Source: Neonectria sp. B-13
Lineage: Eukaryota; Ascomycota; Sordariomycetes; Hypocreales; Nectriaceae
DNA: 64,000 bases
Assembly: GCA_002682825.1 (NCBI GenBank)
Contig: NOKP01000001.1
Location: forward strand, 932,501-996,500
Direction: 5' to 3'
Shown here one piece after another: positions 38,158 to 64,000 of this stretch (within the stretch, counting starts at the first letter, position 1; the number at the start of each line of letters is the position of its first letter). Position numbers and translations under genes: made by a program. A model generated the notes under the pieces. It was not told the DNA's origin and ran no database searches. It was given only the letters and a program-made list of their open reading frames with translations.

Positions 38158-40686
38158 CTAAACCCTCCAGTCGAAGCCTATGTCAAAGCGGCCATCTTCG
38201 GGTATAGCCAAGTTCGAGCACCTGACTGTGTTGTTGCTTGCGTCCAAGAAACCTCCCTGGTCAACTCCTTGCCTAGCAACTCGGTTCCCCCACCAGTCCA
38301 AGCGAATGTTGTTGCGTTGTAGTGCAAAGAACATGACGAGTCCGGATATGCCAATCGCAGCCATGAACGAACTCGTCAAGACATAGGCGTATCTTTCCCA
38401 CCATGCCTTGTATCGCCTCTTGATAAAGTAGTTGAAGAAGATAGCAAGAACAACAGTGCCCTGCATGTAGGACCAGTTGTACGGAGCCCACCCCAGTGGA
38501 CCAGCCATGAAAACAGGGATGTTGACGTTGCGCCAGAATGATCTAGGCCATCTCTTTGCCACGAAATAGACGGCAATGGGGAGGACAACGCCTAAGGGGA
38601 TGACATAGGTGACAGTGCGGTACGGTCCGTGAAGACCGAAGAGGCGACGCGGTCCGACGACACCCCACAGGATCGATGTCATGAAATAGGAGTGAGTGTG
38701 AGGGCACGTGAAGCGATCTTTCTGTCTTCCGTGACATACGTCTTCGATGTTGCGCAAGACCCAGTGATTGACGCCCAGAGCCACAAACCCAGCCAAAACC
38801 GTCGCGTAGACCTGAGCTTTGAACGCCCAGCGAGGAGGGATCTTGGCGTAGTGCGCCAGCTTTAGATCAGACACGAAGTTGAGAGATTGGGATGTCGACA
38901 TAAAGCTGAACATCTTGAAGATCATGTTCGGGATAGTCCGGCCTTCCAGCGCGTACCCTCCAATGACGTAGGCCAGGATGCTCGTGGGGACTTCCATGTT
39001 GGTAATCGCCGCCAACATGCCAATGGGAATCTGCAGCAATATCGTGAAGCAAAGCGCCAGCACGATTCCCCAAATGGGCATCCCCGTGGGCCAAAGAGTG
39101 ACTGAGAGGCAGGCCAGAATAAAAGAGACGACGAGGATGATGAGGTACCACCAATGAGGGCACTCTGGATAAGCAGACATGAGTCGATTGTGCACATCCT
39201 TGAACTCCTCCGATCGCTTTTTCCGAGACCAGACGGATCTCAGCCCGTCCATGATATCCTTGCGGTGCCAGAGGAACATGTGGGTGGGGATCGCGACGTA
39301 GAGGGCGAAGAACCCAGCGTAGTTTAGGATCTGAGTAGTCGTCACAAGTGGAACACTGTATTCGTAGTACGCTGTTTCGTTGAGGGTGAAGTCAGAGTTC
39401 AGAATGCGCCGGATATCATAATGCTTTCCAGTGTTGTCGTAGATTCTGTTGCCGTTGATAGGAAAGTATCCAGCATCCCAAACGTTGTTGAAGTACAGTA
39501 TTGGAGCGACGATGAATCCCATAATAGCCATACCAGTCGAGAAGTTCATCAATGTGAATAGTGGAGTAATTATAGGGTCGCCGAGATATGTCGCAATGTT
39601 CCAATCGAGAGTTGGGAGTGGGTTGATACCGAGACCACAAGTGCTTCCCGCGATCAAGGCGAGTGTAACACTCCCAGGGGAGATCCAAGTAACCCAGTTG
39701 AATAGAGCGAGACCTTGAAAGAGGAAGTTGGGGACAAAGTACCAGAAAAACATGGCTGCGAAACAGACGACGAAGAATCGGTATCGTGAAATAGTCCATC
39801 CATTCGCACTGGAGTCTGCGTCCTGCCCATTGTCTTTGAAGAGCGCCTTGGTGAGTGCGATATTGGCGAGGGGCCGTTGCCATATCATCGAAGGAGGATA
39901 TACGAGAAATCGACGGGCCATACCGGCGCATCCGTATCCCATGATTTGAGTAGCCAAGAGGGTGACGATCTGCCAGGGAATGCTGTTGGCAAGCACGGTT
40001 TCGCCGTAGAACATGTCGAGCTTCAGGACCTGGATGATGCTGACGATGTAGGCTCCGGTCGAATGGCCGCCAAAGGCAACATTTGCCATCATTGCAATGA
40101 GGATGTGTTCCTTCTGGTTGAACGACCCGGGATTCAGGGTAAAGCTCCAAGGGCCGACACCAAAGGTCCTAGCCGGGAGCCATCTAGCCATCAGCACGCC
40201 GATGGGCTTTGAAAGCAGCTGCACAACGTAAGTCGAGATCATGATGCTGGGCATTCGGAGAGAAAAGAATTGTTGAATAGCAGTTCCTCCAATGGTGAAG
40301 ATTGTGCCCATGAAGAATACTCTGAAAGTGCCCACAGGGAGCGTCGGGTCGTCCGTCGGGTCGACAACGGCACGGACTTCTGGGTAGGCAGAGTTGTTGA
40401 TCATCAAGTCCTTCTGAGCCTCGAATTCGTCGACGATATTCTGGGCGAGCTCTGAGTCTTCATGGCCATCCCGCCTGTTCTCGAGATATTCTCGAGCACG
40501 ATCAATTGTTCCGGTGGGGAAATTCTGATCGTGTTCGTGCTCCTGGATAAGTGTCTCTAGAGCATGGACGAGATTTGCTTGGGAGTCAACTGAGTCCTGG
40601 CTCTCAGACGCCCGCTTCTCGGTAACATTCTCGGTTGGCAGCTTTGGCTTAGTGACACCTGGCGTTTTATCAGGCACCAGTTCCAT
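38158..40686 (-). CDS. OPT-family oligopeptide transporter
   Basis: Proton-coupled plasma-membrane importer of small peptides, glutathione or related chelates. One exon, 842 residues from the ATG at 40686; the frame runs 27 codons further upstream but only from GTG. After a charged cytosolic N-terminus (about 1-118), some 14-16 hydrophobic segments follow. The OPT signature NPGSFNQKEH is at 185-194 and the conserved KIPPR-W motif is in the second half. The length is usual for fungal OPTs. There is no intron, although neighbours to the right have many. It lies tail-to-intergenic on the left; on the right its start faces the 3' end of a short-chain dehydrogenase gene on the same strand, about 0.9 kb away. 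It may serve the small accessory cluster to the right, but nothing in the sequence proves this. Confidence 0.92.
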   Translation of the reverse strand: MELVPDKTPGVTKPKLPTENVTEKRASESQDSVDSQANLVHALETLIQEHEHDQNFPTGTIDRAREYLENRRDGHEDSELAQNIVDEFEAQKDLMINNSAYPEVRAVVDPTDDPTLPVGTFRVFFMGTIFTIGGTAIQQFFSLRMPSIMISTYVVQLLSKPIGVLMARWLPARTFGVGPWSFTLNPGSFNQKEHILIAMMANVAFGGHSTGAYIVSIIQVLKLDMFYGETVLANSIPWQIVTLLATQIMGYGCAGMARRFLVYPPSMIWQRPLANIALTKALFKDNGQDADSSANGWTISRYRFFVVCFAAMFFWYFVPNFLFQGLALFNWVTWISPGSVTLALIAGSTCGLGINPLPTLDWNIATYLGDPIITPLFTLMNFSTGMAIMGFIVAPILYFNNVWDAGYFPINGNRIYDNTGKHYDIRRILNSDFTLNETAYYEYSVPLVTTTQILNYAGFFALYVAIPTHMFLWHRKDIMDGLRSVWSRKKRSEEFKDVHNRLMSAYPECPHWWYLIILVVSFILACLSVTLWPTGMPIWGIVLALCFTILLQIPIGMLAAITNMEVPTSILAYVIGGYALEGRTIPNMIFKMFSFMSTSQSLNFVSDLKLAHYAKIPPRWAFKAQVYATVLAGFVALGVNHWVLRNIEDVCHGRQKDRFTCPHTHSYFMTSILWGVVGPRRLFGLHGPYRTVTYVIPLGVVLPIAVYFVAKRWPRSFWRNVNIPVFMAGPLGWAPYNWSYMQGTVVLAIFFNYFIKRRYKAWWERYAYVLTSSFMAAIGISGLVMFFALQRNNIRLDWWGNRVARQGVDQGGFLDASNNTVRCSNLAIPEDGRFDIGFDWRV

Positions 40687-41568
40687 TTTCTTGCGGATTG
40701 CGATCGAGGAACGGAGGCTGAGGTGTGGCCAGTAAACAGAGGTAGGGTAACGGTAGTTGCTGAGCACTGGAGATAGTTTACTGGAATCAATGACAATGAG
40801 GAGAACCTGTGGTTGTGAATTACTTCACTTGGTCTGAAACTAAGAGCGCGCCTTGCCTCGAAGAAGTCATGGCAGCGAGTAGCGGAGATAAAATCCGCGA
40901 CGGAAACCTCTTCATCTTAAACCCTGGCTGTGATAGGGTTTATCGAAGCCACGGTACTCGCATCGTTGGAATAATGAGGCATCGTGAGAGAGATACGACC
41001 TAGAGGAGTCAAAACTCGAACCGCAGGAGGAAACCCCATCGACGTTGACGACTCCACACCTAAAACCAGAGATCGGATATGAATACTACCAAGCCACTGA
41101 GTATAGATTCGCTGAAGGAACCATCCCCAAAGCATTGATGAAAAACGAATCAGGATTTTGAGAGATTGTGTCCAAGAGCTAGCAAGGTCAGCAAAGTTTG
41201 CAGTTGCCTTATCATGTTGAAGGTTCGTATTCGAAGCAACCTTCGGGGTGGTGTGTTCTTGAAGTACATCTGTCATCCCTAGAAAAAGCCTTTCTAAGTT
41301 TGTCGCGTTTATGAGGAAGAAAAAACCAGTGGTGTCATGTGGGCGTTGGAAAAAGCTTTCTAGAACTCATAAAAGAACGTGGTGGGTGGCATTTTCTTTT
41401 TCACTTACATGGCCATGACTCCTTTAGGAGGGCATATCACCACAAACGAAATTAAATAGTGATCAATGTCTTTTTTACTATGCCTGCTATAATTAAAACT
41501 GTTGAGAAGCGCAAGATATAGTTAAGAATACAAGCTCTCGTATTTCGCCCCCTTAGCCTGTATGCATC
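40687..41568. other. upstream region of the OPT transporter
   Basis: 0.88 kb between the OPT start and the 3' end of the SDR gene. AT-rich in its right half (41280-41540). No gene and no copy of the GGGGTAA motif found in the neighbouring promoters. Confidence 0.5.
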
Positions 41569-43703: not shown

Positions 43704-45842
43704 ATGACTACAGACGTGAAAGAGTCCGTTGATGGACAGCAGCCTGACAAGGGATCTACCGATGATATCGAAAAGGCTCACGAGACGACCAGCCATGTAG
43801 TGCACGACGAAAAGAATGCGACATGGATTCCCCGGGACGACACTCAGTACGATGTTACCTTCAAGACTTGGATTGTGGCTTCAGTAAGAACAGTTCACCC
43901 CGAATCTGGCGGACAAGCTTTAACAACTATCTCCTAGATCCTTGCCTTTTCATATGGAGTTTCGTTCTGGATTGTCCCGTCTCTGAGCTCGTGCCAGGGT
44001 CTTGTTGCAGCACAACTCGGCGATGCAACCCAGGCCGCGTGGTATGTCCCGATATACACAATGACGGTTACAATGGCGTTCATGTAAGTTTTGATCCTAG
44101 AAGCATCTTGCAGTCTCTGATGTCCTTTAGGATCTGTGGTGCCAACTCTGATCTGTTCGGCCGACGCTGGTTTATCATCACCGGGAACATTCTACTATTT
44201 ATCGGCTTCATTGTTGGGGGTACTGCAAAAAGCAACACCGCCATGATTGTTGCTTGTGCCTTTATTGGATTTGTAAGATAAGATTCGAGAACCCCGAATA
44301 CCATGGGAGTATTGCTAACTTGGAACCAGGGTGCCGGCAATGCGCAACTGGCTGCCTTTGCTCTCCCCGAGCTTCTTCCGAACAAATGGAGACACTCTGC
44401 GATTGTGTTTGCCGGTATGGGCTCTGATATCATATGAACCGAATTATTCTCACGCTCTCTAGATATCGGTGTTTACTTCTCTGTCATCGTCGGCCCCGTG
44501 GCTGGTCGCTTCGCCATTCAACGGGGTGAGGATGTAAGTACCCGCCCATCTCCTGCGAATAACCCAGTTTCTGACTTCCAAAGTGGCGATGGCTATTCTA
44601 TGGGCCTGCAATTGTCATTGTGTTTTCTTTCATCGGACTGTACATGTACTATTTCCCGCCACAACACCCCCGTGGCCTCCCCACCAAGCAAGCCCTGCGC
44701 GAGCTCGACTACGTTGGCGCTCTACTATTCATCGTCGCAACGACTCTCATTCTCACCGGCATTGTCTACACTACGACACTGAATTCCTCTGACCCCAAGG
44801 TCATTGGTACCCTTGTATCCGGGTTCGCTTTGATGACTGCCTTCGCGCTGTGGGAGACGTTCGCCCCGCTGAAGCAGCCGCTCACACCGACCCGCATCTT
44901 CACTCGGGATCACGGCCGAGAACTGACTGCGCCTTTTGTTGCTGGGTTTGTCGTCACCATGTTCTATTACTGCTTGAACGTGGTGTTTCCCACGATGATC
45001 GCCGTGTTCTTCACCGACGAGAATACCGACTTCAAGTACGCCATCGTCTTGACGCTTCCGCAGAACCTCGGCCTCACATTCGGCGCCGTGCTCTTAACGC
45101 TCTTTGGCTCGAAGATCGGGCACTGGCGGTGGACTTTGACGGGGTCTGTTACTATCATGGTAGTTTTTGGTGCCTTGCTCGCACTGGGGAATCCGGATCG
45201 CTTTGGCATGATGATTGCCTTCATCTTCATTGCCGAGGTCGGTTTTGGTTGGGCTCAGTACCTGAGTATTGCGTTCATCCAGTTCGGCACTGACCAGGTG
45301 GAACTTGGTATTTCTGGAGGTCTTGCGTACGTATTGGCTTGTCATTTCGTCCTGTCCACAAGCTAACATCGACCAGGGGCGTGTCTCGTTTCGCAGGAGG
45401 CGCAATCGCCATTTCGTTATACACCACTATCCTGACCAACGTCCAATCTTCGAGCATGCTGAAGCTCGTTCCAGCGGCAGTAACCAAGGCCGGTCTACCC
45501 GAGGGCTCGGTCGACCAGTTGCTGGCTGCTCTGCCATTGGGCTCGGCGGCGCTTCAGCAAGTCCCCGGCATCACCGCAGAGATCATGGCAGCTGCCGGCG
45601 CAGCCTTCCAACAGAGCTACGTTGTCGGCTTGAGAACAACTTGTCTGTCGTCCTTGTCTTTTGGCGTGATTGGAATTATCGGTAAGTTTCCTTTGGTCGT
45701 TTCCTTTGGTCGTTTCCTTCTACAGTTTGCTGACTCTAAATTAGCGTGTCTCTGCTGCCAGGACATTGAGCATAAGATGACTGACAAGATTGAGATCTTC
45801 CTGGAGAATGACAAGCACGCGGACATGAACAAGTACCATTAA
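43704..45842 (+). CDS. MFS exporter, TRI12/siderophore-transporter-like (DHA family, about 14 TM)
   Basis: Membrane transporter predicted to export a toxic or secondary metabolite, or to handle siderophores. Eight exons: 43704-43883, 43938-44083, 44131-44272, 44330-44414, 44463-44533, 44584-45326, 45377-45681 and 45745-45842. They give 589 residues, and all seven introns (47-63 bp) keep frame. A cytosolic N-tail with acidic residues precedes about 14 hydrophobic segments. The MFS loop 2-3 motif DLFGRR, WRWLFYGP after TM6 and the long loop before the last TM are typical of the TRI12 group. The ATG at 43704 is chosen; an upstream GTG frame is not used. The last intron contains a duplicated 13-bp unit. 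Divergent from the SDR gene and followed by the monooxygenase-like gene on the same strand. Confidence 0.92.
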
Positions 45843-46866: not shown

Positions 46867-47612
46867 ATGACGGCCACAATCCCATTAACGGACCGGTTTT
46901 TCCTCTTTGGAAACTGCAACATTATCCCGGACAGATATGACGATGTATGGTTTTGCCGTTCAGTATTGAAGTCAGCTAACCGATACCATCTCAGTGGCAA
47001 GCCGCGTACGACAAGCTCGCCGAGTATGTCTTCGACAAGGAGCCTAACACCCTGACGTACTACTTTGGCATCCCGCTCGAACACGCCTCTAACCCATCCC
47101 GCACCGACAACATGCTCGCCTTCGAGAGCTATCGGTCCCGCGAGGACCTGTACGACGTGCACCTTAAATCCGAGGTCATGACGACCACGTTCCTCCCCAC
47201 GGCGGGCCCGACTATGACGACGGGCCTGGACCTTACGCACTTCGCCGCCGTGGGTGGCTTCCTCGACCTCAGCGGCCAGAAGACCGAGTGCGGGCTCATG
47301 CACGACATCCAGATCCGGTGCGTTGACGGGGCGGCGCGCGAGGAGTTCCTGGGCGTGCTGAAGCTGCTATGCTCCACCGTCGAGGAGCGGCAGCAGGACG
47401 GCAAGGGCGAGGTATTGACGTTCATGGGGCTCAAGTCGCTGGACAACGAGACGGGCGCGAGGATCTTTGCGCGATACAAGAGCCGTGAGGTGTGGGAAGC
47501 GTTCTTGCGCGGGGATCTGATCCAGGCGTTCTGGGAGTCGGTAAAGCCGAGTATTTCGAGTATGGATGCTAAAGCATTTGCGCCGAACGGAAAGGGATGG
47601 TTGTGGAAGTGA
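46867..47612 (+). CDS. dimeric alpha/beta-barrel protein, ABM monooxygenase-like
   Basis: Two exons, 46867-46944 and 46995-47612, with a 50-bp phase-0 intron (branch CTAAC), giving 231 residues. The sequence falls into two ferredoxin-like halves. The first has YDKLAEYVFDKEPNTLTYYFG and a downstream FESYRSREDLYDVHLKSE, the pattern of antibiotic-biosynthesis-monooxygenase (ABM) domains: a His in the helix after the third strand, then a Phe/Leu-rich strand. The second half repeats it with FMGLKSLDNETGARIFARYKSREVWEAF. ABM proteins oxidise aromatic polyketides without cofactor, or act as heme or quinone enzymes; which role applies cannot be read here. No targeting signal. Same strand as the MFS exporter and probably part of the same small cluster. 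The 3' end converges on a small membrane-protein gene. Confidence 0.8.
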
Positions 47613-49211: not shown

Positions 49212-51165
49212 TTAAAATGAATACTCCTCCACGTGCAAATAGATCCCCTGGGCGCCAGTCCCCTTGTGCACGGCTCTCTCGTCGCTTAGTTGGCTGACGC
49301 AGTTTCTCGTCCGCGCAACCACCTCCGGCCCGCCGCAGACCACCACCGCCGTCTCGCCCCACGCCTGCTCGACCGGCTCGCGGATCAGAGCATCGATGTT
49401 CGGGCGACTGGTGTACTCTCGAACCAGCTCAGGGGTGACCGTCGTGGTGGTACCGCTACTCCTGCAGGGCGACATGGGCTTCTCGCCTGGTGGCGTGCTG
49501 GCGCTGGCGCTGCAACAGCAACCGCCCGACTTCTCTACTATGACGGGCTCGATGCTATTCTCTGAGTCGCTCTGGGGGCCCGGCTTGGCAAGGGAGACCG
49601 GTGCTTGCTCGCCCTTGTTGGCCCCTGTTATCGCGACATGCACCCTCACCGTCATGCCCTTGTCCCTAGCGATACGACTTGCCTCCTCGGTTCTCTCCAC
49701 GTAATAGTTGATCTCCTCCGCCGTCCGCGCCATTAACACAACCTCGACTCTCCGCAAACAATTCTCTCCCTTGGCGTTTGCAATGCACTCGAGGATTGGC
49801 ACCGTAAAGCTGGCCCCGGTCGAAGCTCCGATAAGAACCATCGTCTCGTAGACGTCCCACCGGGGTGGAGCGCCGTACGGGCCCGACACGAATCCGGTGA
49901 GCTCCGACGTAGGGTTCTTGGTCGCGTACTCGTGGATCCTCTTCGAGAAGCCCGCTTGAGCGCGAACAACTAGCTGAATGCTGTTACAACAGCATGTGCC
50001 CTCCAGTTTGTGCGCGCAGGCAATTGTGTACGGGTGCGCCTCCAAGGGCCCGAGTCGAGGAATCCAAAGGTAGATGTGCTGGCCTGCCTTCCATTCAAAG
50101 TGGACGTCCTTGATGGTTACCACGGTGGTCGAAGGGCAGACAGCTCGAACAGTGACACGATGTCCCACGCGCTTCATGCCCTGGCAGGCCGACCCATTTG
50201 ATCGCAACCGTATATTCTGCCACAGCAGGAGGAGCCACCTTGCGGCGCGATCAAAGACGAGGAACGAAACGCTCATCCAGAGCAGGTAGCGAGCGTTGGA
50301 AGGAATGTGCTTGTGCAGCAGCCACAGCATGATGATGCTCGATAGCACATGCTGTACCACCCACACTTCGTAGGCAAGCCGCCGAATCGGCACCACGCCG
50401 ACAACGACGTTCCACAACAGGATTCCCCAGGCCCCGATGCCGTACTTGACGAGGGGCATGATCTGCAGCTCAAAGGCGACAAAGTCGGCCTTCACCCACA
50501 AGGTCCAGAAGTGGAAGCCATGAACCGTCGCAGTGACGAACATGGTGCGCGCGACCCAGCGATGCAGCCAGTTGAGCCTCTCGTGGCCGGTGCCGATGAG
50601 GAAGCCGACGACGTTGACCTTCATAGCGAGCAGGTACAGCAGCGGGAGCTGGCAGAGGGCGACCCATGCGTTGCGGTAGCCGATGCGCTCATAGTAGTAG
50701 ACGTCATTCTGGACCGAGTTCCAGCGCATGAGGTAGACGATGACGGCCCAGTAGCAGGCGAGGACGAAGACCCGGCCGAGGGGAGGCGGCGTTGCCCATC
50801 GGAAACCGTTGAAGGGGACGTAATACTGCGGGTGGCCTATCTCGCGGACGATGGCCGTCGCGGTGGCCCAGGCCTGGCTGAGGGGGCCTTGGGGCCGTGT
50901 AGGATGCTCGATCGAGGGATTGTGACAGGCTTTTAACCTGTTGGAAGCGATATGTTAGGTTAGATTCCAGAGCAGCCGCGGTGGCCTTTGTTCACGGGAT
51001 ATCTTGAGTCTCGACCTACCTTTGGCGGGCGTCGTACTGGTTGATGCTACGGACGACGGCCAGTGAACCGACGACTCCGGCGATGGTGTACCAGTACCCA
51101 CGCGCAAAAGCGTAGTTGGTATCCATACCCAGGCCGGGATCATGATGCATGTGTTCCATATCCAT
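49212..51165 (-). CDS. ferric/cupric reductase (FRE/NOX superfamily transmembrane metalloreductase)
   Basis: Plasma-membrane flavocytochrome predicted to carry electrons from cytosolic NADPH through FAD and two hemes to extracellular Fe3+ or Cu2+. Two exons, 51165-51020 and 50937-49212, with an 82-bp intron; 623 residues. The N-terminus MDMEHMHHDPGLGMD is Met/His-rich, like copper-transporter ectodomains. One TM precedes the ferric-reductase domain, which carries the four heme ligands His174/His188 and His245/His259, each pair with 13 residues between. FAD-binding HPYT is at 350-353, the NADPH site LIGASTGAS near 417-425, and the C-terminal VVCGGP. Two CCC clusters, one in the FAD region (KLEGTCCCNS) and one in a Ser-rich insertion before the C-terminus (SGGCCCSAS), are unusual. 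Divergent from the X325 copper-protein gene. Confidence 0.93.
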
Positions 51166-52737
51166 TGTGAGCAAACGCAAACGGCTGTCGCCGTTGGTGG
51201 TGGGGTTGTTGGTGTTTGGTTTTCGAGGCGTTAAGTCTTGGGTCTACTCGCCAGGAGGAGACTCGGAGACCAGGAGGATAGAAGAAGACAATACAGTTGT
51301 GACGTCTGCGTTTGAGATCCGGCGATTCAGGCGGCCATGATCTCCTGTGTCCTATCGACTCCCGTTGTTGGTTGACAGAGGACCAAAATGCGGGGGATGG
51401 GATGGCTGGAGTGGGAAAACGCGAGAACGCTTTAGTCGTCAAGACAGAGACCGAGGTATTGCAATATGTGACTCGGAAACGAATGCGATGGGCTTGTGTG
51501 ATTGTCTGTAGAAAAACGTGGGCTGCGTCTGTGTCTCGGCGTCTTTGTCGAGTCTTGGAATCTCGAGATGTCGAGTGAGATGCGATGAGCGTCGGGATAT
51601 GCTTGCTTACGAATGGGAACCAGATCAGCATGTCACTTTGCGCGAGTATTGATTGGAGAAAAGGCACAAGACAGCGCGAGCAAGAAAAACGGTCCCTAAG
51701 CTAGTGTCTCTGTGTCTGTCTGCATGGCGCATCCTCGCTTCTATGAGCTGTCTCCCATGTTTGCGTCCTGTCTCGTCCAACCACGATGCAGTGGCCTTGT
51801 TTGACCACCGTTCGTCTCCCGGATCTTGCCCGCTCCGTAGTACTTCGCTCGTCTCATGGCCTCTTCCCTGTGCCGGGTATCCGAGATCCGAAGAAAGCTG
51901 TTTTCGTCTGGCATCAAAGCCCAGCATTGAGACTGATGGCAGTTGTAGTTCTGTCTAGTCGCTCGGCAAAAGAGGAGCAAACTTGCTCAAACAACCTCAG
52001 GGCCCGTGCACAAGGCTCCTCCCGATTGGATCGCTGCTAATCCCTGTCGATCTCGCCTGGAGGAGATCCCACTTGGTTCGCCAAGCTTGGACGTTTTTGG
52101 CACCTTTATGGCATCTCGTCAGCTCCTCCGTGTGTTGATGTGCCGCGCCTTCCAGCGAGACTCACCTGCGTGCTGTTGCGATAGTTGGAGAGATGCGGCA
52201 ATGCTGGAACTAGAAATAACAATACTCGCGTGTTTTCGAAAGCAAATACCTACTACGGAGCAGAAAAACAAAACAAAATAATAATCTGGCCTACTCCAAT
52301 GCCGTGGGCTATCTCTGATCATCATGGAGACTCGAGTGCCAATGCAGGTCTCAACGTCTCTCTCCAACCATGACACAGGCTGTTTCAGACAATCGACTCA
52401 TTAAGCCTCTCCAGTAGGTACCCGTGTTTCTGCATTGAGTGGTGCAGCCGCCAACCCCAAGCTCCTGGGCTCTTCTGAGTTACACCATCGCGTGCCGGCC
52501 GTTCCTCTCACCTGCCTTAGCCTCCGATTCCCGCACCTCAGCTACAAAAAGCCACTGACGCGCCCAGAGCTCCGATTTCTTTCCTCTTGGTCTTCTCCGC
52601 ATTGTTGCTTCCCCTTCTCCATTGTGCTGTTAATCACTGACTGTTGCCGGGCTCTTCACTCCTCCAAGTCCTCCTTCACACGATCCATCGCCAACCTCGT
52701 CACCACTACAACTACAACTACTCTCCCCCTCCTCAAA
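51166..52737. other. divergent promoter of metalloreductase and X325 copper protein genes
   Basis: 1.57 kb shared by two genes that fit one pathway. Contains the Mac1-type inverted element at 51976-51989. The right end (52480-52737) is C/T-rich with an ACTACA repeat just before the X325 ATG. No ORF that I support. Confidence 0.65.
51976..51989. promoter_or_regulatory. inverted copper-element-like pair GAGCAAACTTGCTC
   Basis: GAGCAAA is the reverse complement of TTTGCTC, the core of the yeast Mac1 copper-response element. It is followed immediately by an opposite-facing TTGCTCA. The arms GAGCAA/TTGCTC are separated by two bases. It sits almost at the midpoint of the divergent promoter (about 810 and 750 bp from the two ATGs). 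Function inferred from the motif and the neighbours. Confidence 0.45.
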
Positions 52738-53505
52738 ATGCGCACCAACGCCCTCCTCTCCGCGGCGGCCCTCTGCGGCTTCTCGCTGGCCCACTTCGAG
52801 CTCAAGTACCCCGAGTCCATCGGCTTCAGCGACGAAAACGAAGGCGACTCTCCCTGCGGCGGCTACACCCCCGACTTCTCCGACAAGGACAAGATTGTCG
52901 ATTTCCACGTCGGCGGCGAGGCCATTGCCGTTCGTTCGACCCACCAACAGTCCAACTGGTTATTCCGTGTCACCACCGACGAGAAGGCCAAGTCGGGCTG
53001 GGAGCAGCTCTTCCCCATTGTTCAGCAGAGCGGTCTTGGCGACTTCTGCGAGCCCAAGATCACTGTCAACGAGAGCTACATTGGCAAGAAGGGCATTGTG
53101 AGCGTCGTCTCCTCTGCCGCCGACGGTCTGCTGTACCAGGTTAGCCTCCTTGATTTCCGTCTTTGAGTCGGAGCTGTGATTAACTCTTTTGCTTTACAGT
53201 GCATCGTCGCCAACTTCGTCAAGGGTTCCGCCGACGCACCCTCTGAGTGCAAAAACGCCTCCTCCGTCAAGGCCTCCTTCACTGACGACGAAGACCTCTC
53301 CGCTCTTGTCGACACCAACTCTAGCAGCGGCAGCGCCAGTGGAAGTGCTTCTGTATCGTCGACTGCTTCATCGACCGGTTCTGCAGCCTCAGCGACCGAG
53401 AGTGACGGCGCAGCGTCGGCCCTGCAGGCGTGGTCCGTTACTGGCCTGGGTAGCATCATTAGCATGCTTTCGATGGTGTTTGTTGGAGGAGCTGTGATGA
53501 TTTAA
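52738..53505 (+). CDS. GPI-anchored X325 (BIM1/Cbi1-type) LPMO-like copper-binding protein
   Basis: Two exons, 52738-53139 and 53200-53505, with a 60-bp phase-0 intron; 235 residues. A signal peptide (1-18, ending GFSLA) is followed directly by His19, so the mature protein begins HFELKYPESIGF with the N-terminal His that forms a copper histidine brace in LPMO folds. The core continues with DSPCGGYTPDF, a second His in DFHVGG, the pair C-x-P in GDFCEPK, and CIVANFV after the intron. These are typical of the X325 family (family knowledge). A Ser/Ala-rich stalk (about 175-210) and a hydrophobic C-terminal tail (about 215-235) indicate a GPI anchor. X325 proteins bind copper but do not cleave polysaccharides; Cryptococcus Bim1/Cbi1 is needed for copper import and cell-wall integrity. 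Divergent metalloreductase gene supports a copper-uptake role. Confidence 0.9.
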
Positions 53506-56628: not shown

Positions 56629-57448
56629 CACTCGTCTATCTGTAGGTTATCATGATAGCAAAGGGTTGTGCTAATAACAGAACTCATAATCATTGATGTA
56701 ACTGAACCTGTATTGACAAGTCGCTGGCTGATGACATTAATTGTTCAGTCTCACTGACCCAGTCAATTCAATGAAGGAGATGGGGTTGTCGCAATTGAGC
56801 TGAAGCTCCGTCATGACCTCATCGACACTGTGTCCGTCGGGGCTCGGCCGAACATGAATGAGTTAGTCCAACTCGCTTCACCCATGTCCCATGTCCATTT
56901 ACCATTCTCCACAACTCCAGAGCCCGTGATACGCCATTGATGCGCCAGGTTTAGACTGGCGTCTTGCCGGCGCCAGCTCTGGCTGAGGGGTAGCACCAAT
57001 TCCTTCACCTCTCCCACCTCACCGAACCAAGCCCATCTCGATTGATATAGCCTCGTCTTGCTATTCGTCGTCAATTGCTCAGTCCACAGCTCTGAAAATA
57101 CTGAGCAACCCAATCCGAACACTTCAAACGGGTTGTGCAAACCATGGACTGCAGGCAACCTCTTTGGGTCGCCATTCGCCGGTTCCGTTGAACTTTACAC
57201 ACCACGACGTTGACTCCGCACCCTTTCGAGTGCTTGCTTCATTAACAGAATAGCTATCTCCGTTTACCATTTTTCAACCTCTTTGGCTTTTGGCAGAGTC
57301 TAAAAGCCTCTCGAACAACCCGGCCGCTGGGGATCGGGCCCAGTCTCCTACTTAACTCAATCTTCCCCAGTCCCTTGGAAGAAATGCCCAAATTTCTCCT
57401 CCACTATCATCCTCACTTTCAGTAGAGTCTCAGATACATCAAGTCAAA

Positions 57449-60400
57449 ATGACTTCTACCCACTCTGCCTCAGCGCTTGAAGAGACCTGGCAATCCCGGG
57501 TTGTTCCAATTGCTCCAGGCTGGAGACATTCAATGCTTCATCGAATCGGTGTCGGCACCTTTTCGGGGCCTGACGCCCACATCATTCTTGTCTTGGCTAT
57601 TCTGTCTCTCGCTACTCTTCTCCTGTATGCCGGACACGCAAAGCTTCGCAAGCTTCTACCCCGTTGGTTGAAGCCATTTGCCCAGGAGGATGCTCCGTAC
57701 CCTCCAAAGGGCACACGATGGACAGCATGGACTCTCTGCCTTGCCATTGTCTGCTTTCTCGGACTCACCTTGTCCATTGTTTCCGCAATTCTCAACCCAA
57801 CTCGTCCATCTGTCATGCTTGAGACATTACCATGGCTCGTGGCCACACTCATCACGGCGATTGATCGCCCGACGAAAACCCCGAAACTCCTCCTGCTTCA
57901 GTATTTGCTGCTCCTGGTCGCAAGCTTGGCCATCTATGCGGCTCACTTCTTAGATCCTAGAATCAACATCTCAGATCCCATTCGTGCCGCCAGAACCAGC
58001 CTCGTCGGTCTGGCCATCATTGCAATTGGTAACATGCCTCTCCGGGACCCATCGTGGGGAGCCTCGGGTATTGGAAGCACACGCCTCCCGCCAACCCACC
58101 ACGTCCGCAGCCCGGAAGATAACCTCACGCTCTTCCAGTTCTGGACCATGGCTTGGGTCTACCCGCTGGCCAAAGTGGCTCAGAAACGCGAAATCACGGT
58201 CGAGGATGTTTGGCAGCTGCCCTTTGACTTTCAGCACACCCGGCTGTACATGGCGTTCCGAGAGCTCGAGGGCAAGCTTCTTCCCTGTCTGATCGAGGCC
58301 AATGGGCTAGATCTCTTCCTGTCCACGACTCTCTCCGTGGTTGAAAAGGTTTCCGAGGTGTCGAACATCCGCTTGACCAGCAAGCTGTACAACGCCCTCG
58401 ACGCAAACGACCCTTCCGAGGCCGCTCTCTGGTGTCTTATTATGCTAGCCATCGACTTCATCCGCCAGATCTCGAAGACTTCATCTGGCTGGTACTCGCG
58501 CAAGGCATACGAGAGATGTCGCGGAGAGACTTTTATCGGACTGTTCGGCAAGCTCCTAACCAGAGCTGTGCCAGGATCCGAAGCCACGGAGAAGGATCCC
58601 GCCGCAGCTGCCCATCCCGAAGCTGAGGGCTTGCGGTCGTCCAACAAGTTTTCTCGGTTCTTCTCTCGGGTTTGTGGCCGCAAGAAGCGTGTTGTTCCTA
58701 AGGACGGTGGTGCTTCCCAGTCAGCATCCAACGCAAAGGTCGTCAACTTGGTCCGTGGAGATACTTATGAGATTTCTCAGCGGTTCTGGGAGGCGCCAAG
58801 GGTCGTCTCTCAACCAATCAAGGTAGTCTTTACTGTGTACTACCTCATCGACATCATGGGCTGGCCATCGTGCATCGGTTTCGGGTTGATGGGACTGTTC
58901 CTCGCTTTCAACTCTGTGCTTGTTCGCGAGTCTATCAAGCTTGAGCGCGTCAGGGCGTCTCACTCGGATAGGCGCGCTCAGGCTGTATCGCACTTCGTTG
59001 AGGCTAGCCGGCCTCTCAAGCTGAACGGGTGGACATCGTCCTGGAGCAGCAGAATCATGAAGTTCCGTGACCTTGAGATGACCAAGCGGCTTCAGATTTC
59101 CTTTGTCGGCGCTGCAATCTCTATAGTCAACGTCTTGGGTGGAGCGACGTACCCTCTGGCGAGTATCACCTTGTACACTCTCATCCTTGGCAAGGGTCTC
59201 CCTAACGACGTTATCTGGCCATCGCTGCAACTCTTCGGTCATCTGGAATCCAGTGTCAAGGAAGCCTTCGATCTCATTTCAGCATATTGGAAGGCAACGA
59301 TCCCAGTCGAGCGCGTCAACAAGTACATGTCTGAGCCCGACCGGGACGAGGAGTCCAACACCGCGGCTAGTAAAGATATCGAGTTATCCGATGCATCTTT
59401 CTCTCGGCCCTCTACAGACCACTTGATTCTTTGCAACATCACTCTTAAGTTTACCACTGGTCTAACAGTCATCCGAGGCAAGGTTGGCTCCGGAAAATCG
59501 AGTCTCCTGCTTGCCATGCTCAATGAGATGGAGCACCGTGGTGGTCATTTCTCCAGACCTGACGAGCCTGTCGCATACGCTCAGCAGCTGCCTTGGATTC
59601 AGAGCAAGACCATCCGGGAGAACATCATCTTCCACCAAGGATACGACCCGGTTCGTTATCGCGAGGTGCTTAATGCGTGTGCTTTGGTTCCCGACCTGGC
59701 AACCTTCCCAAAGGGAGACCAGACCAAGCTAGAGGAGGGAGGCATTGGTCTCTCCGGGGGACAAAAGGCGCGTGTTGCTCTGGCTCGGGCTGTCTACAGC
59801 CAATGTCGAATCCTCCTTCTCGATGATCCTCTCGCTGCTCTGGACCACGATACCGCCAGTATCATTGTTAAGCGCTTCCTGTGTGGTCCTTTGGCCCAAG
59901 GCCGAACCATTGTGATGGTGACGCACAGAGACGATTTGGTTCTTCGGCATTCGGACCAAGTGGTTGACATTGTCGATGGCCGCGCACACATCTTGTCTGA
60001 TGATGAGTTGCAAGAAGAACTTAGTCACCCACTCCACTCCGACTCGGGAAATGGCAACATCCAAACCCACGAGACGATCCAGGACGATCAACCAGGTGAC
60101 ATTCCAGGAGCTAAGGAGGCTCCAGAAGAACCGTCTGAGACTGGCAGCATTCCTTTGTCCATCTACCTCAAGTACATGACGGCTGGTGGATGGCATCTTT
60201 GGGTCTTCTTGGCTGTTTTCTACGGTCTGTCTCGATATTGCGACATTGCCCGAGCACGACTTCTTGAAGCCTGGGGCAATGAGTCCGTCAACACTTCAGA
60301 AATCACGATTAGCAGCTACTGGGGTCTTCCTAACCCAAGCGACCATCCCAAGTCGTGGCTTTATGTTCTCGCCGGCATCTCCGGTGGGCAGATTGCCACG

Positions 60401-61864
60401 TTTGCCATCGCCCAGGTCCTCCTGGCTCGCATCAGCATCAACGCTGCGCGAGGCTTGTTTAAGGTCGCCATCGAAAAGGTCAGCAAAGCTTCGTTCCGCT
60501 ACCACGACATCACTCCTACAAGCCAACTGAAGAACCGCTTAATCGCCGACATGGGTATGGTCGACGGCGGCATTCTCTCTCCTCTTGAGTCCTTCGTCTA
60601 CAACCTGATTGCTCTCACTTTGAGTCTGGTAGCTATCATGTCTCACCAGCCGTCACTCATCATCATCCTAGTTGGCGTGGCTTTGCTCTTCGTGTATTTC
60701 TTCAGAATCTATGTCCCGGTTTCGCGATGTCTGCGCCGCATGGAGATGAGATACCTGACGCCGATCATCGCCAACATCGGCGTCATGCAAGACGGCCTCG
60801 TGACCATTCGCGCGTTGCGAGTTGAGGGCCACTTCCAGGACAGGCACTTGGACGCCGTGGATGACTTCCAGAAGCAGGATCACTTCTTCTGGAGCATGGC
60901 ATTCTGGCTCGACTTCAGACTGGGCATGTCATCGGCTTGCATGCGTGCCGTCTTGATCCTGTTCATGGTGTGGTACGGCACCCCTGCAAGCGCTATTGGT
61001 TTTGTCTTGACGCAAACAACCGTCGCGATGAGTGCCGTTCAACAGCTCTGCGAGAGATTTGCAGCCCTACAGCTCGACGCGGTTTCTCTGGAGCGTGTTG
61101 ATGCGCTAAACCGGATCCCCGAGGAACCAAGTGGCGATATCGAACCACCTGAGGACTGGCCGCGACCATGCGACAGTGTTCGTTTCGAGGCGATGTCGTT
61201 CAAGTATGCCGATGACCTCCCTTCAGTTCTTGACAAGATCTCTTTTGAGATTCCAGGTGGCTCTACTTGCGCCGTCTTAGGTCGCACGGGATCTGGCAAA
61301 TCGACCATCGCCAACGCCCTCTTAGCAACCCAGACACCTTCCACTGGCAAGGTCAAGATCGGTAGCATCGATCTCTCCCGGGTCAACCGTACTGCCCTTC
61401 GCAATCGTGTCACTTTCATTCAGCAAGATCCGACGCTTTTCCCCGGGACGCTGCGAGACAACATCGATCCTGAAGGCAAGTTCTCCGACAGAGAGTGTAA
61501 CAACGCCATCCATCGCGTCCTAGGCCAAGAATGGGGTCTGTATTCGCAAATCGACGCCGGGGGCAAGAACCTAAGCCAGGGCCAGCGACAGCTCGTAGGT
61601 ATCGGGCGTGCGGTTTTGCGACGAAGCGGCTTAGTCATCTTGGATGAAGCCACGGCGTCCATCGACCGCGGTACGGCTGCTAGGGTGCAGCGGATTCTGA
61701 GAGAGGAGCTGTCCAAGAGCACGGTTATCACGATTGCGCATCGACTCGAGGCTGTGGAAGATGCGAATTGGTGTCTGAGATTGGACAACGGCAGGGTTGT
61801 TGAATGCGGCCCTGCGCAGCATCTTGGAAGATCACGAAACGAATCTCGTAAAGGTAATCAGTGA
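57449..61864 (+). CDS. ABC transporter, ABCC/MRP type (TMD0-TMD-NBD-TMD-NBD)
   Basis: Multidrug or conjugate exporter of plasma or vacuolar membrane; substrate not predictable. One intronless exon of 1471 residues, full length for the family, with ATG in a good AAAATGAC context. An N-terminal group of hydrophobic segments (about 45-200, TMD0-like) precedes the first core TMD. NBD1 has Walker A GKVGSGKSS (about 677-685), signature LSGGQ (about 768), Walker B ILLLDDP (about 788-794; the second Asp where Glu is catalytic is usual for ABCC NBD1) and H-loop VTHRDD. NBD2 has GRTGSGKST (about 1278), LSQGQRQ (about 1375), LVILDEA with the catalytic Glu (about 1395) and IAHRLE. Linkers near 390-440 and 850-890 are charged. 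No frame damage. The leader is pyrimidine-rich. Confidence 0.95.
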   Translation: MTSTHSASALEETWQSRVVPIAPGWRHSMLHRIGVGTFSGPDAHIILVLAILSLATLLLYAGHAKLRKLLPRWLKPFAQEDAPYPPKGTRWTAWTLCLAIVCFLGLTLSIVSAILNPTRPSVMLETLPWLVATLITAIDRPTKTPKLLLLQYLLLLVASLAIYAAHFLDPRINISDPIRAARTSLVGLAIIAIGNMPLRDPSWGASGIGSTRLPPTHHVRSPEDNLTLFQFWTMAWVYPLAKVAQKREITVEDVWQLPFDFQHTRLYMAFRELEGKLLPCLIEANGLDLFLSTTLSVVEKVSEVSNIRLTSKLYNALDANDPSEAALWCLIMLAIDFIRQISKTSSGWYSRKAYERCRGETFIGLFGKLLTRAVPGSEATEKDPAAAAHPEAEGLRSSNKFSRFFSRVCGRKKRVVPKDGGASQSASNAKVVNLVRGDTYEISQRFWEAPRVVSQPIKVVFTVYYLIDIMGWPSCIGFGLMGLFLAFNSVLVRESIKLERVRASHSDRRAQAVSHFVEASRPLKLNGWTSSWSSRIMKFRDLEMTKRLQISFVGAAISIVNVLGGATYPLASITLYTLILGKGLPNDVIWPSLQLFGHLESSVKEAFDLISAYWKATIPVERVNKYMSEPDRDEESNTAASKDIELSDASFSRPSTDHLILCNITLKFTTGLTVIRGKVGSGKSSLLLAMLNEMEHRGGHFSRPDEPVAYAQQLPWIQSKTIRENIIFHQGYDPVRYREVLNACALVPDLATFPKGDQTKLEEGGIGLSGGQKARVALARAVYSQCRILLLDDPLAALDHDTASIIVKRFLCGPLAQGRTIVMVTHRDDLVLRHSDQVVDIVDGRAHILSDDELQEELSHPLHSDSGNGNIQTHETIQDDQPGDIPGAKEAPEEPSETGSIPLSIYLKYMTAGGWHLWVFLAVFYGLSRYCDIARARLLEAWGNESVNTSEITISSYWGLPNPSDHPKSWLYVLAGISGGQIATFAIAQVLLARISINAARGLFKVAIEKVSKASFRYHDITPTSQLKNRLIADMGMVDGGILSPLESFVYNLIALTLSLVAIMSHQPSLIIILVGVALLFVYFFRIYVPVSRCLRRMEMRYLTPIIANIGVMQDGLVTIRALRVEGHFQDRHLDAVDDFQKQDHFFWSMAFWLDFRLGMSSACMRAVLILFMVWYGTPASAIGFVLTQTTVAMSAVQQLCERFAALQLDAVSLERVDALNRIPEEPSGDIEPPEDWPRPCDSVRFEAMSFKYADDLPSVLDKISFEIPGGSTCAVLGRTGSGKSTIANALLATQTPSTGKVKIGSIDLSRVNRTALRNRVTFIQQDPTLFPGTLRDNIDPEGKFSDRECNNAIHRVLGQEWGLYSQIDAGGKNLSQGQRQLVGIGRAVLRRSGLVILDEATASIDRGTAARVQRILREELSKSTVITIAHRLEAVEDANWCLRLDNGRVVECGPAQHLGRSRNESRKGNQ

Positions 61865-62354: not shown

Positions 62355-63957
62355 CTAAGCTACAATGCCTCCTCGGGATTCCTCGGCCTCCCTTTCCAGC
62401 TTGTGCTTCTCTTCTCTTGCCCTGTAAATCTTCAACGACATTTCCACTGGCCTCTCGCCGGGCGTTTCAAAGATCTTGTCGATTTCCTCCAGGGATAGCT
62501 TGCTGGTTTCCGGGAACAAGAAGTAGGCAATGACACCCTGCAGGGCATTGTACACAATGTACACGACCCAGATCTTGTAGCCGACCTTCTGAATTCCGAC
62601 ACCAATACCGTAAGTATGCACGACACCGGCAGCACCCTGGAACATGGCGTATAGGCCCATACCCTTGGCACGGAGGGAAAGGGAGAGTATCTCAACGGGA
62701 TATAGGTTGTGCATAGTGGCAATGGTACTGGCGCTGCAGATTTGGAAGCAGTATACCCATAGTACCATGAGAATAGCGCTACTCTTAGACCCGTCGATGG
62801 AGAATCGCCAGCTGGTGATTGTAACGGCAGTCTGGAAAATTACGATCAAGATGATTCCAGTGAAGATAAGGGTCCTTCGGCGGAACTTGTCGACGATGTA
62901 TGCTCCGAAGAGGGTGAAGACAAAATAGAGACCAGTAGAACCAAGGTTGATTCCGAGTTGCTCAAGGGTTCCAGTGATGCCTACTGTCTCAAGTGCTGGC
63001 GTAAGGTAGTATCCTTATACATATGTCAGTAAGGGTCAAGCTACACTGATGGTGGTGGTGGCGGTGGAGGGAGAAGGCATCGTGGGAACTCGCTCCGTGG
63101 TGGGGGTATATACACCCAAGCGAGTCAAGTGCGCACGAATTAAGAATAAATAGAGCTTACCAATAATCCCGCCTCCATTCCATTGCTGAAATACTGAATA
63201 AATCAGGAGAACAGTCGTGCGGAAGCCGACTGTGCGAGTGAAGAAAACGCGGAAGTCATACGCGGCCCGGACGGTTGTCCGGCTCTCCAGCGAGTCTTCG
63301 ATCTGCGCAATGACCATGCCGACAATCGGGTCATTTATATCGTTGTGCGTAGTCTGATACTTTGCAATGACCTCGCGGGCCTTCTGTATCTTTCCTTTCA
63401 TGACCAAATATCGAGGTGATTCCGGACACCAGACATAGATGAGGATGCAGACCAGGGCAGGGAAAATAGCTTGGAGCATGAAGGCAGTCCGCCACTGCCA
63501 ATCGCTCTGCCACCTTGTCAAAGCCATCATTACCCCCAGCATGAGCAACGAGCCGACCTGGAAACATGCGCCGAAGATTCCCACGATGCGCCCTCGGAGA
63601 TGCGCTGGTGCGACCTCTGCGACGTATTGCGGCGCCGTGCAGAGCGCCGTTCCGAAGCCGAGCACGATCCGGCCGGCCATCAAAGTTCCGACGTTGGGTG
63701 CGTTGCCCTGCATAAAAGCAGCAATGACACAGAGTAGGTTGCCGACAAAATTGACGCCGCGTCGACCGATCACATCGCTGAGGGCGAGGAAAGGAGCGCC
63801 CACGAAAATGCCGATCTGCATCAGGGCGTTGATGGTGCTGATGATGACGCCGGACGTGCCAAAGCCGTAGTACTCGTGCCATCGATCGAAGGAGTTGATT
63901 CCTCCGACGACTCCCCAGTCGACTCCGTAACCTGCTTGGTTGCAGCCCATCACGAAC
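62355..63957 (-). CDS. MFS sugar transporter (lactose-permease/hexose-transporter-like), 5' end outside window
   Basis: Sugar:proton symporter of the plasma membrane. Two exons are in the window, 63957-63161 and 63013-62355, separated by a 147-bp phase-1 intron. They give 484 codons plus one base of a split codon. The first exon lies beyond the right edge: an acceptor (branch CTGAC, then ATCAAG) stands at 63959-63958 and the frame joins with phase 2. The visible protein begins FVMGCNQAGYGVDWGVV. It includes DVIGRRGVNF (loop 2-3), GRIVLGFGTALCTAP, VAEVAPAHLRGRIVG, PESPRYL after TM6, and FPETSKLSLEEID after TM12, all standard sugar-porter signatures. The Gln/Asn-Gln in the first helix resembles the fungal lactose-permease/LAC12-like group. 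Substrate not determinable. Convergent with the ABC transporter. Confidence 0.93.
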
Positions 63958-63959
63958 CT

Positions 63960-64000
63960 TGATACAAGTCAGTATATTTGTCAAGGGGTCTAAGGACCTC
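63960..64000 (-). other. intron of sugar transporter, truncated by window edge
   Basis: On the minus strand this holds a CTGAC branch site and a pyrimidine-poor acceptor before 63957. The donor is outside the window. Confidence 0.7.

Follow-up and report, generated by a model that had tools for sequence, protein, structure and literature searches.

A stretch of 64,000 nucleotides from Neonectria sp. B-13 (the window; bases 932501-996500 of contig C1 in a genome of 60.9 Mb) carries, head to head, a gene for a FRE-type metalloreductase and a gene for a protein of the X325/BIM1 family. We propose, with a probability of about 0.82, that they form a copper-starvation acquisition pair driven by Mac1 from a common promoter region. 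In the proposed mechanism, the copper-fist regulator Mac1 would drive both genes in copper starvation, and the X325 protein at the cell surface would capture scarce Cu(II) with a histidine brace plus an Asp residue. The reductase, a flavocytochrome b, would carry electrons outward from cytosolic NAD(P)H through flavin adenine dinucleotide (FAD) and a pair of hemes. At the outer face it would turn Cu(II), possibly that held by X325, into Cu(I), which Ctr transporters, whose genes lie at other loci of the genome, would take in.

Layout of the gene pair

A preliminary description, made from the letters alone, had placed a divergent pair, a metalloreductase and an X325 (BIM1/Cbi1-like) protein, at 49212..53505. 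These outer coordinates are exact for both gene models, the start codons lie head to head 1572 bp apart, and Pfam, motif and structure matches bear out both identities. The features of the locus are as follows.

49212..51165, minus strand: FRE-type metalloreductase gene, two predicted exons, 623 amino acids, from gene model and Pfam
51165..51163, minus strand: ATG of the reductase, whose stop codon ends at 49212
50938..51019, minus strand: predicted reductase intron, 82 nt, GTAGGT...CAACAG
51166..52737, no strand: candidate shared promoter, the 1572 bp between both start codons
52738..53505, plus strand: X325/BIM1-like copper protein gene, two predicted exons, 235 amino acids, with the ATG at 52738 and the stop codon ending at 53505
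53140..53199, plus strand: predicted X325 intron, 60 nt

The introns of both genes are predicted from the reading frame, the borders (GT...AG in the reductase) and the agreement of relatives. The top protein matches among those listed are from Neonectria, with 93% identity for X325 (N. magnoliae) and 90% for the reductase (N. punicea). Six open frames of 90-186 amino acids within or overlapping the 1572-bp interval gave no Pfam match.

The X325/BIM1-like protein

The protein encoded on the plus strand clearly belongs to the X325/BIM1 family, by sequence and by model, and copper binding is predicted for it. Residues 18-155 match PF20238, 'Copper acquisition factor BIM1-like', at an E value of 4.1e-31 (108.8 bits; the cut-off is 27). 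The signal-type N-terminus ends in SLA, and predicted cleavage before HFELKYP would leave a mature His1. Such a His had been foreseen in the preliminary description, and 162 of the 168 listed relatives agree with it, fitting a signal followed by an AHF or AHY start. The C-terminus has a Ser/Thr/Ala-rich stretch and a hydrophobic tail, a pattern that would fit a glycosylphosphatidylinositol (GPI) anchor. The predicted copper ligands H19, H69 and D129 (1, 51 and 111 of the mature chain) are invariant in an alignment of 32 sequences, composed of the window protein and 31 chosen relatives. The Asp is kept within DG.LY in 160/168 listed relatives, and the full DG.LYQC string, which in the window gene is interrupted by the intron, in 140/168; the other 28 are 12 chains shorter than 200 amino acids and 16 longer ones.

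A search of the Protein Data Bank with the single sequence returned nothing at E 0.1. The profile of the 32-sequence alignment, however, found the Laetisaria protein LaX325 (6ibh) at E 1.9e-6; in that match His1, the second His and the loop Asp (DG-LYQC) line up with the 6ibh sites. In the AlphaFold model of N. magnoliae X325 (93% identical), block confidence (predicted local distance difference test, pLDDT) is 80 to 98 over residues 21-170. Foldseek ranked LaX325 chains first to fourth for this model (E 2.5e-8 to 5.0e-8), with bacterial lytic polysaccharide monooxygenases next; the template modelling score against 6ibh was 0.74 by target length and 0.49 by query length, at 22% identity.

A side observation concerns relatives P0058, P0067, P0074, P0080, P0101, P0247, P0252 and P0287, which are source-named 'expression library immunization antigen 1'. 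This label presumably comes from a Coccidioides vaccine antigen, and that antigen may be a copper-binding X325 protein.

Cbi1/Bim1 of Cryptococcus neoformans and LaX325 share with the window protein the X325/BIM1 fold, His1, a further His and an Asp in a Gly-rich loop. Cbi1 carries a GPI-type surface anchor, for which the window protein is a candidate. They differ in being basidiomycete proteins, and the similarity of LaX325 to the window protein is low. The site of LaX325 and Bim1 is described as a histidine brace plus an Asp on the Gly-rich loop (Brander et al., PMC7529816). Ascorbate is oxidized by the copper of Bim1 at a very low rate, if at all (PMC7529816), which makes a separate reductant plausible; the text examined reports no linked reductase for Cbi1/Bim1 or LaX325.

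The FRE-type reductase

All three FRE domains are present in the reductase: Ferric_reduct (PF01794, E 7.5e-22), FAD_binding_8 (PF08022, E 7.8e-12) and NAD_binding_6 (PF08030, E 7.6e-10). Two HX13H pairs, H174/H188 and H245/H259, supply the heme ligands, and these four His are invariant in 43 aligned relatives (of 120 listed). The motifs HPYT at 350, GPYG at 401 and CGG at 583 are in place. A Foldseek search with the model of the N. punicea reductase (90% identical; mean pLDDT 72) returned NOX5, NOX2 and DUOX1 structures. In this model one helix (14-54) lies ahead of six core helices, so the window reductase probably has seven membrane helices. The FAD/NAD part of this family is cytosolic; the additional helix would then place the N-terminus outside, an assignment that we make tentatively from the model.

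The N-terminus is rich in Met and His (MDMEHMHHDPGLGMD), and on the proposed topology it would be extracellular and might handle copper. We examined this feature in the 84 of 120 listed homologues with a recognisable N-terminal anchor. The 36 that were dropped seem by eye to be mostly gene models without the first exon; P0146 was dropped for one changed anchor residue only, while P0166 and P0180 have extended chains. In 79 of the 84 homologues the anchor is preceded by four or more Met plus His, initiator included. The median Met+His fraction is 0.33 at the N-terminus, as compared with 0.055 over the remaining chain, and in 77/84 the N-terminus ranks within the top 1% when set against windows of equal length from the same protein. 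The letters themselves vary by lineage (MDMDHMHHDPG, MDGMDMSGDGMTG, MSHNHGGG...MTMG), and it seems from these sequences that composition is kept rather than sequence. The N-termini of Ctr transporters are likewise conserved in composition rather than in sequence.

The reductase also has two CCC clusters in its predicted cytosolic part, at residues 364-366 (TCCCNS, FAD region) and 522-524 (GCCC, disordered linker). CCCxS occurs in 85/120 listed homologues, and the clusters possibly serve metal-related regulation.

Conservation of the pairing

The adjacency of the two genes is kept across Hypocreales, and apparently also in Pseudogymnoascus destructans and Aspergillus fumigatus. Relatives were matched by hand through species, listed contig size and locus tag, using the best 120 of 217, of 764 and of 480 matches, and contigs of equal listed size were taken as one contig. 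For 31 of the 39 species names common to both lists, the two genes are on contigs of equal listed size; in nine of these names the contigs are shorter than 100 kb. Tag numbers could be read on both genes in 15 of the 31, and among these 12 pairs are consecutive and one is two apart, while O. camponoti-leonardi and O. camponoti-saundersi have one contig listed with tags 12 and 11 apart. Five more unnamed contig sizes are common to one match of each kind. The names with the pair span families that we take to be Nectriaceae, Hypocreaceae, Clavicipitaceae, Ophiocordycipitaceae and Cordycipitaceae, and include one Colletotrichum (C. karsti). Because relatives keep it, the adjacency in the window is not a matter of chance. 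Orientation in relatives could be read only from the Fusarium oxysporum paper (PMC11563359).

The remaining eight names have the genes on different contigs: T. capitatum, C. lovelessii, F. culmorum, F. lateritium, P. lilacinum, T. viride, C. aenigma and F. oxysporum. The rows of F. culmorum, F. lateritium and T. viride have differing tag prefixes, F. oxysporum is represented by many strains, and the contigs of T. capitatum and C. lovelessii are short; these six mismatches neither support nor refute the pairing. We assume that accession numbers of A. fumigatus follow gene order, and the adjacency in that species rests on this assumption. The A. fumigatus homologues of the P. destructans reductase VC83_03096 and its BIM1-like neighbour VC83_03095 are XP_747795.1 and XP_747797.1, two apart, and the homologue of another P. 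destructans protein, BLP3, differs from XP_747797.1 (PMC13208438).

Compared with the four other X325 loci of the genome, the window gene is the better fit for each of the 168 listed X325 matches. Among 15 FRE loci (three duplicate loci were left out), it is the window FRE that fits each of the 120 listed FRE matches best. The comparison is biased to the window genes in that the matches had been retrieved by similarity to them or to their matches. With the window X325 protein as query, no other X325 locus of its own genome was found at E 1e-3.

Copper regulation of the corresponding genes

In F. oxysporum, fre10 (FOXG_18310) and FOXG_02393 are divergent and share a promoter with multiple Mac1 sites by chromatin immunoprecipitation sequencing (Palos-Fernandez et al. 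2024, PMC11563359). Both are induced without copper in a Mac1-dependent manner; in tomato roots fre10 is induced at both time points and FOXG_02393 at 6 days post inoculation (PMC11563359). FOXG_02393 is P0025 of our matches, 68% identical to the window X325 protein over the full query, and the F. oxysporum reductase P0142 is 72% identical to that of the window, which we equate with fre10 because it adjoins the X325 gene. The preliminary description, which knew of no such pair in filamentous ascomycetes, is thus not borne out on this point. The paper gives FOXG_02393 as an uncharacterized protein, and its main text mentions neither BIM1 nor GPI (PMC11563359); we assign this partner to X325/BIM1. 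Within the mostly open-access literature searched, we found no published statement of that identity, and FOXG_02393 is named in PMC11563359 alone.

A second corresponding pair is VC83_03095/VC83_03096 of P. destructans, a BIM1-like and a FRE gene with consecutive tags, likened to the window by family and tags. Under copper withholding, the proteins VC83_03096 (FRE7-like) and VC83_03095 (BLP2) rise by log2 fold changes of 3.59 and 3.57 (PMC13208438), and both transcripts are up as well (PMC12113139). Word searches of the main texts of PMC12113139 and PMC13208438 found no remark on the adjacency of the two genes. Taken together, the pair is kept beyond close relatives and its counterparts in both species respond to copper. 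What the preliminary description had named as refutation, a pair confined to close relatives and either unresponsive to copper limitation or responding to iron alone, therefore does not refute its proposal on the copper data covered. The pair and its copper control were thus already published for F. oxysporum, with the identity of the partner missing there. Added here are that identity, the breadth of the pairing, the three conserved copper ligands and the Met/His-rich N-terminus of the reductase.

Mac1-type sites in the shared interval

Two candidate sites lie between the start codons.

51168..51175, minus strand: TTTGCTCA, the Mac1 element of Saccharomyces cerevisiae and Candida albicans (PMC11563359), two bases before the reductase ATG
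51981..51989, plus strand: ACTTGCTCA, which fits the F. oxysporum Mac1 consensus DHNTGCTCA

By the rate of the window, 0.05 occurrences of TTTGCTCA would be expected in the interval (P 0.049). DHNTGCTCA occurs there twice, once containing TTTGCTCA and once as ACTTGCTCA, versus 0.33 expected by the window rate (P 0.043) and 0.59 by 13 other FRE loci (P 0.12). For extended forms of the site, P lies between 0.01 and 0.12 according to the form and the background used (four forms, two backgrounds, uncorrected). Mac1-type sites in the window promoter are thus only marginally above chance, and the two marginal sites here differ from the 'multiple Mac1-binding sites' reported for the F. oxysporum pair. 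Elsewhere in the genome, 1500 bp upstream of three other Ctr genes have 4, 3 and 3 copies of the core TGCTCA (3, 1 and 0 of the stricter form), and the upstream regions of the four other X325 genes have 0, 1, 0 and 0, their start positions being approximate.

Other copper genes of the genome

The genome has at least five X325 loci (six match rows), at least four Ctr loci (five rows) and at least 18 FAD_binding_8 rows. Three pairs of rows resemble inverted copies of each other, and two of these pairs lie on palindromic contigs. Three copper-fist (PF00649) matches exceed the cut-off, at C43:567992, C66:70980 and C43:707979. The other X325 genes were considered as members of further pairs and rejected; by position, the window FRE alone among the 18 rows adjoins an X325 gene. 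By the same measure a single FRE adjoins a Ctr gene, in a second divergent copper pair on C2 at about 571.9-577.6 kb (L034 3362-9104), where FRE and CTR are followed by a SAM-domain gene. Its reductase is a distant paralogue of that in the window, with 21% identity over 381 residues.

This FRE-CTR-SAM row has the arrangement of fre9/ctr3/FOXG_07771 in F. oxysporum (PMC11563359). In fre9/ctr3 as in Aspergillus nidulans freC/ctrA, a metalloreductase gene adjoins one for copper uptake and the two share a Mac1 promoter region (PMC11563359, PMC7705104). In A. nidulans Mac1 binds there, and transporter and reductase lie side by side in 110 of 127 screened species (PMC7705104). Given freC/ctrA and the FRE-CTR pairs, a reductase beside a copper-uptake partner is an already known design; in freC/ctrA and fre9/ctr3 the partner is a Ctr transporter, whereas in the window it is X325, a scavenger and not a channel.

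Around the pair, the window has an OPT oligopeptide transporter (38158-40824), a TRI12-type major facilitator superfamily (MFS) protein (44575-45366), an ABM-domain protein (46980-47612), an ATP-binding cassette transporter (57356-61864) and a sugar-transporter-type MFS protein (63036-63968), none of them an obvious copper gene. On contigs C27 and C41 the FAD_binding_8 matches stand at mirror positions that sum to contig size plus one; these contigs look like palindromes over their full length, probably through an artefact of assembly. C105 carries two matches of equal score, one on each strand, and is no full palindrome.

Weighing the alternatives

Several observations weigh against a Mac1-driven acquisition pair. 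In the 1572 bp the core TGCTCA occurs twice, versus 0.73 expected from the rest of the window (P 0.17) or 1.07 from 13 FRE loci (P 0.29), and the FRE-CTR promoter of the same genome has seven in 1251 bp; as the core count is not above chance, we dropped promoter sites as a main argument. A hydropathy scan passed 4/7 of the reductase helices, with one spurious peak in the NAD domain, and the model behind the outward N-terminus has a moderate mean pLDDT of 72. The FRE-CTR reductase has, provided that its start is read correctly, five Met plus His in its first 25 residues, so that the N-terminal bias may not be unique to the window reductase. Several of the same-contig names outside the group below 100 kb involve contigs of Mb size, where equal size is no proof of adjacency. 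In P. destructans, BLP3 rises far above BLP2 (log2 fold change 8.03), and its tag is not beside any of the three copper-responsive reductases (PMC13208438). BLP2 is, moreover, abundant in all tested growth conditions (PMC13208438), and an F. oxysporum mac1-null strain grows in low copper nearly as well as wild type when only ctr3 and fre9 are overexpressed (PMC11563359).

The last two findings also favour the strongest rival, namely that the genes are co-regulated without cooperating: the reductase would feed Ctr with Cu(I) from any source, and X325 would have a separate task, such as keeping the cell wall intact or buffering copper there. Effects on the cell wall are known for Cryptococcus Cbi1, and what it specifically does in Ctr1 uptake has been called unclear (PMC9258870). 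We rate this rival at somewhat less than even odds, which are not exclusive of those of our proposal, the co-regulation part being common to both. Unlinked Mac1 targets exist in F. oxysporum (PMC11563359), however, and the kept adjacency exceeds what control by one factor requires.

More tentatively, and in our judgement rather unlikely, the two proteins would be a dedicated scavenger-reductase couple, in which a reductase clade with a Ctr-like Met/His N-terminus on the outer face discharges X325 and passes Cu(I) to Ctr. Ordinary reductants would then scarcely act on the Cu(II) held by X325, and the reductase, on discharging X325, would catch the resulting Cu(I). If true, such a couple would explain why the genes have remained neighbours in much of Pezizomycotina; it would also fill in the reduction step that is missing from the Cbi1/Bim1 pathway.

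A main role of the reductase in reductive iron uptake, with copper induction reflecting the copper need of the iron-uptake oxidase, is improbable. It would accord with the Pfam and source names, which read ferric-chelate reductase or ferric reductase, and with the control of iron genes too by A. fumigatus MacA (PMC6514546). Against it, Mac1 directly targets fre10 of F. oxysporum when copper is limiting (PMC11563359). Furthermore, no iron permease or multicopper oxidase was found among 10 scanned open frames of the window, and the Met/His N-terminus would suit copper over iron. Finally, the few Mac1-type sites and an interval of 1572 bp, long for a single bidirectional promoter, would fit chance neighbours that each respond to copper. 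The consecutive tags in 12 of the 15 readable pairs among the listed matches, together with the Mac1-bound shared promoter of F. oxysporum (PMC11563359), make this explanation highly implausible.

Our preferred reading, a copper-starvation acquisition pair, bears on genes beyond Neonectria. FOXG_02393, an 'uncharacterized' Mac1 target of a published regulon, gains a family and a predicted job. A reductase kept beside X325 over much of the ascomycetes would, in turn, be a concrete candidate partner for the step served by Cbi1/Bim1.

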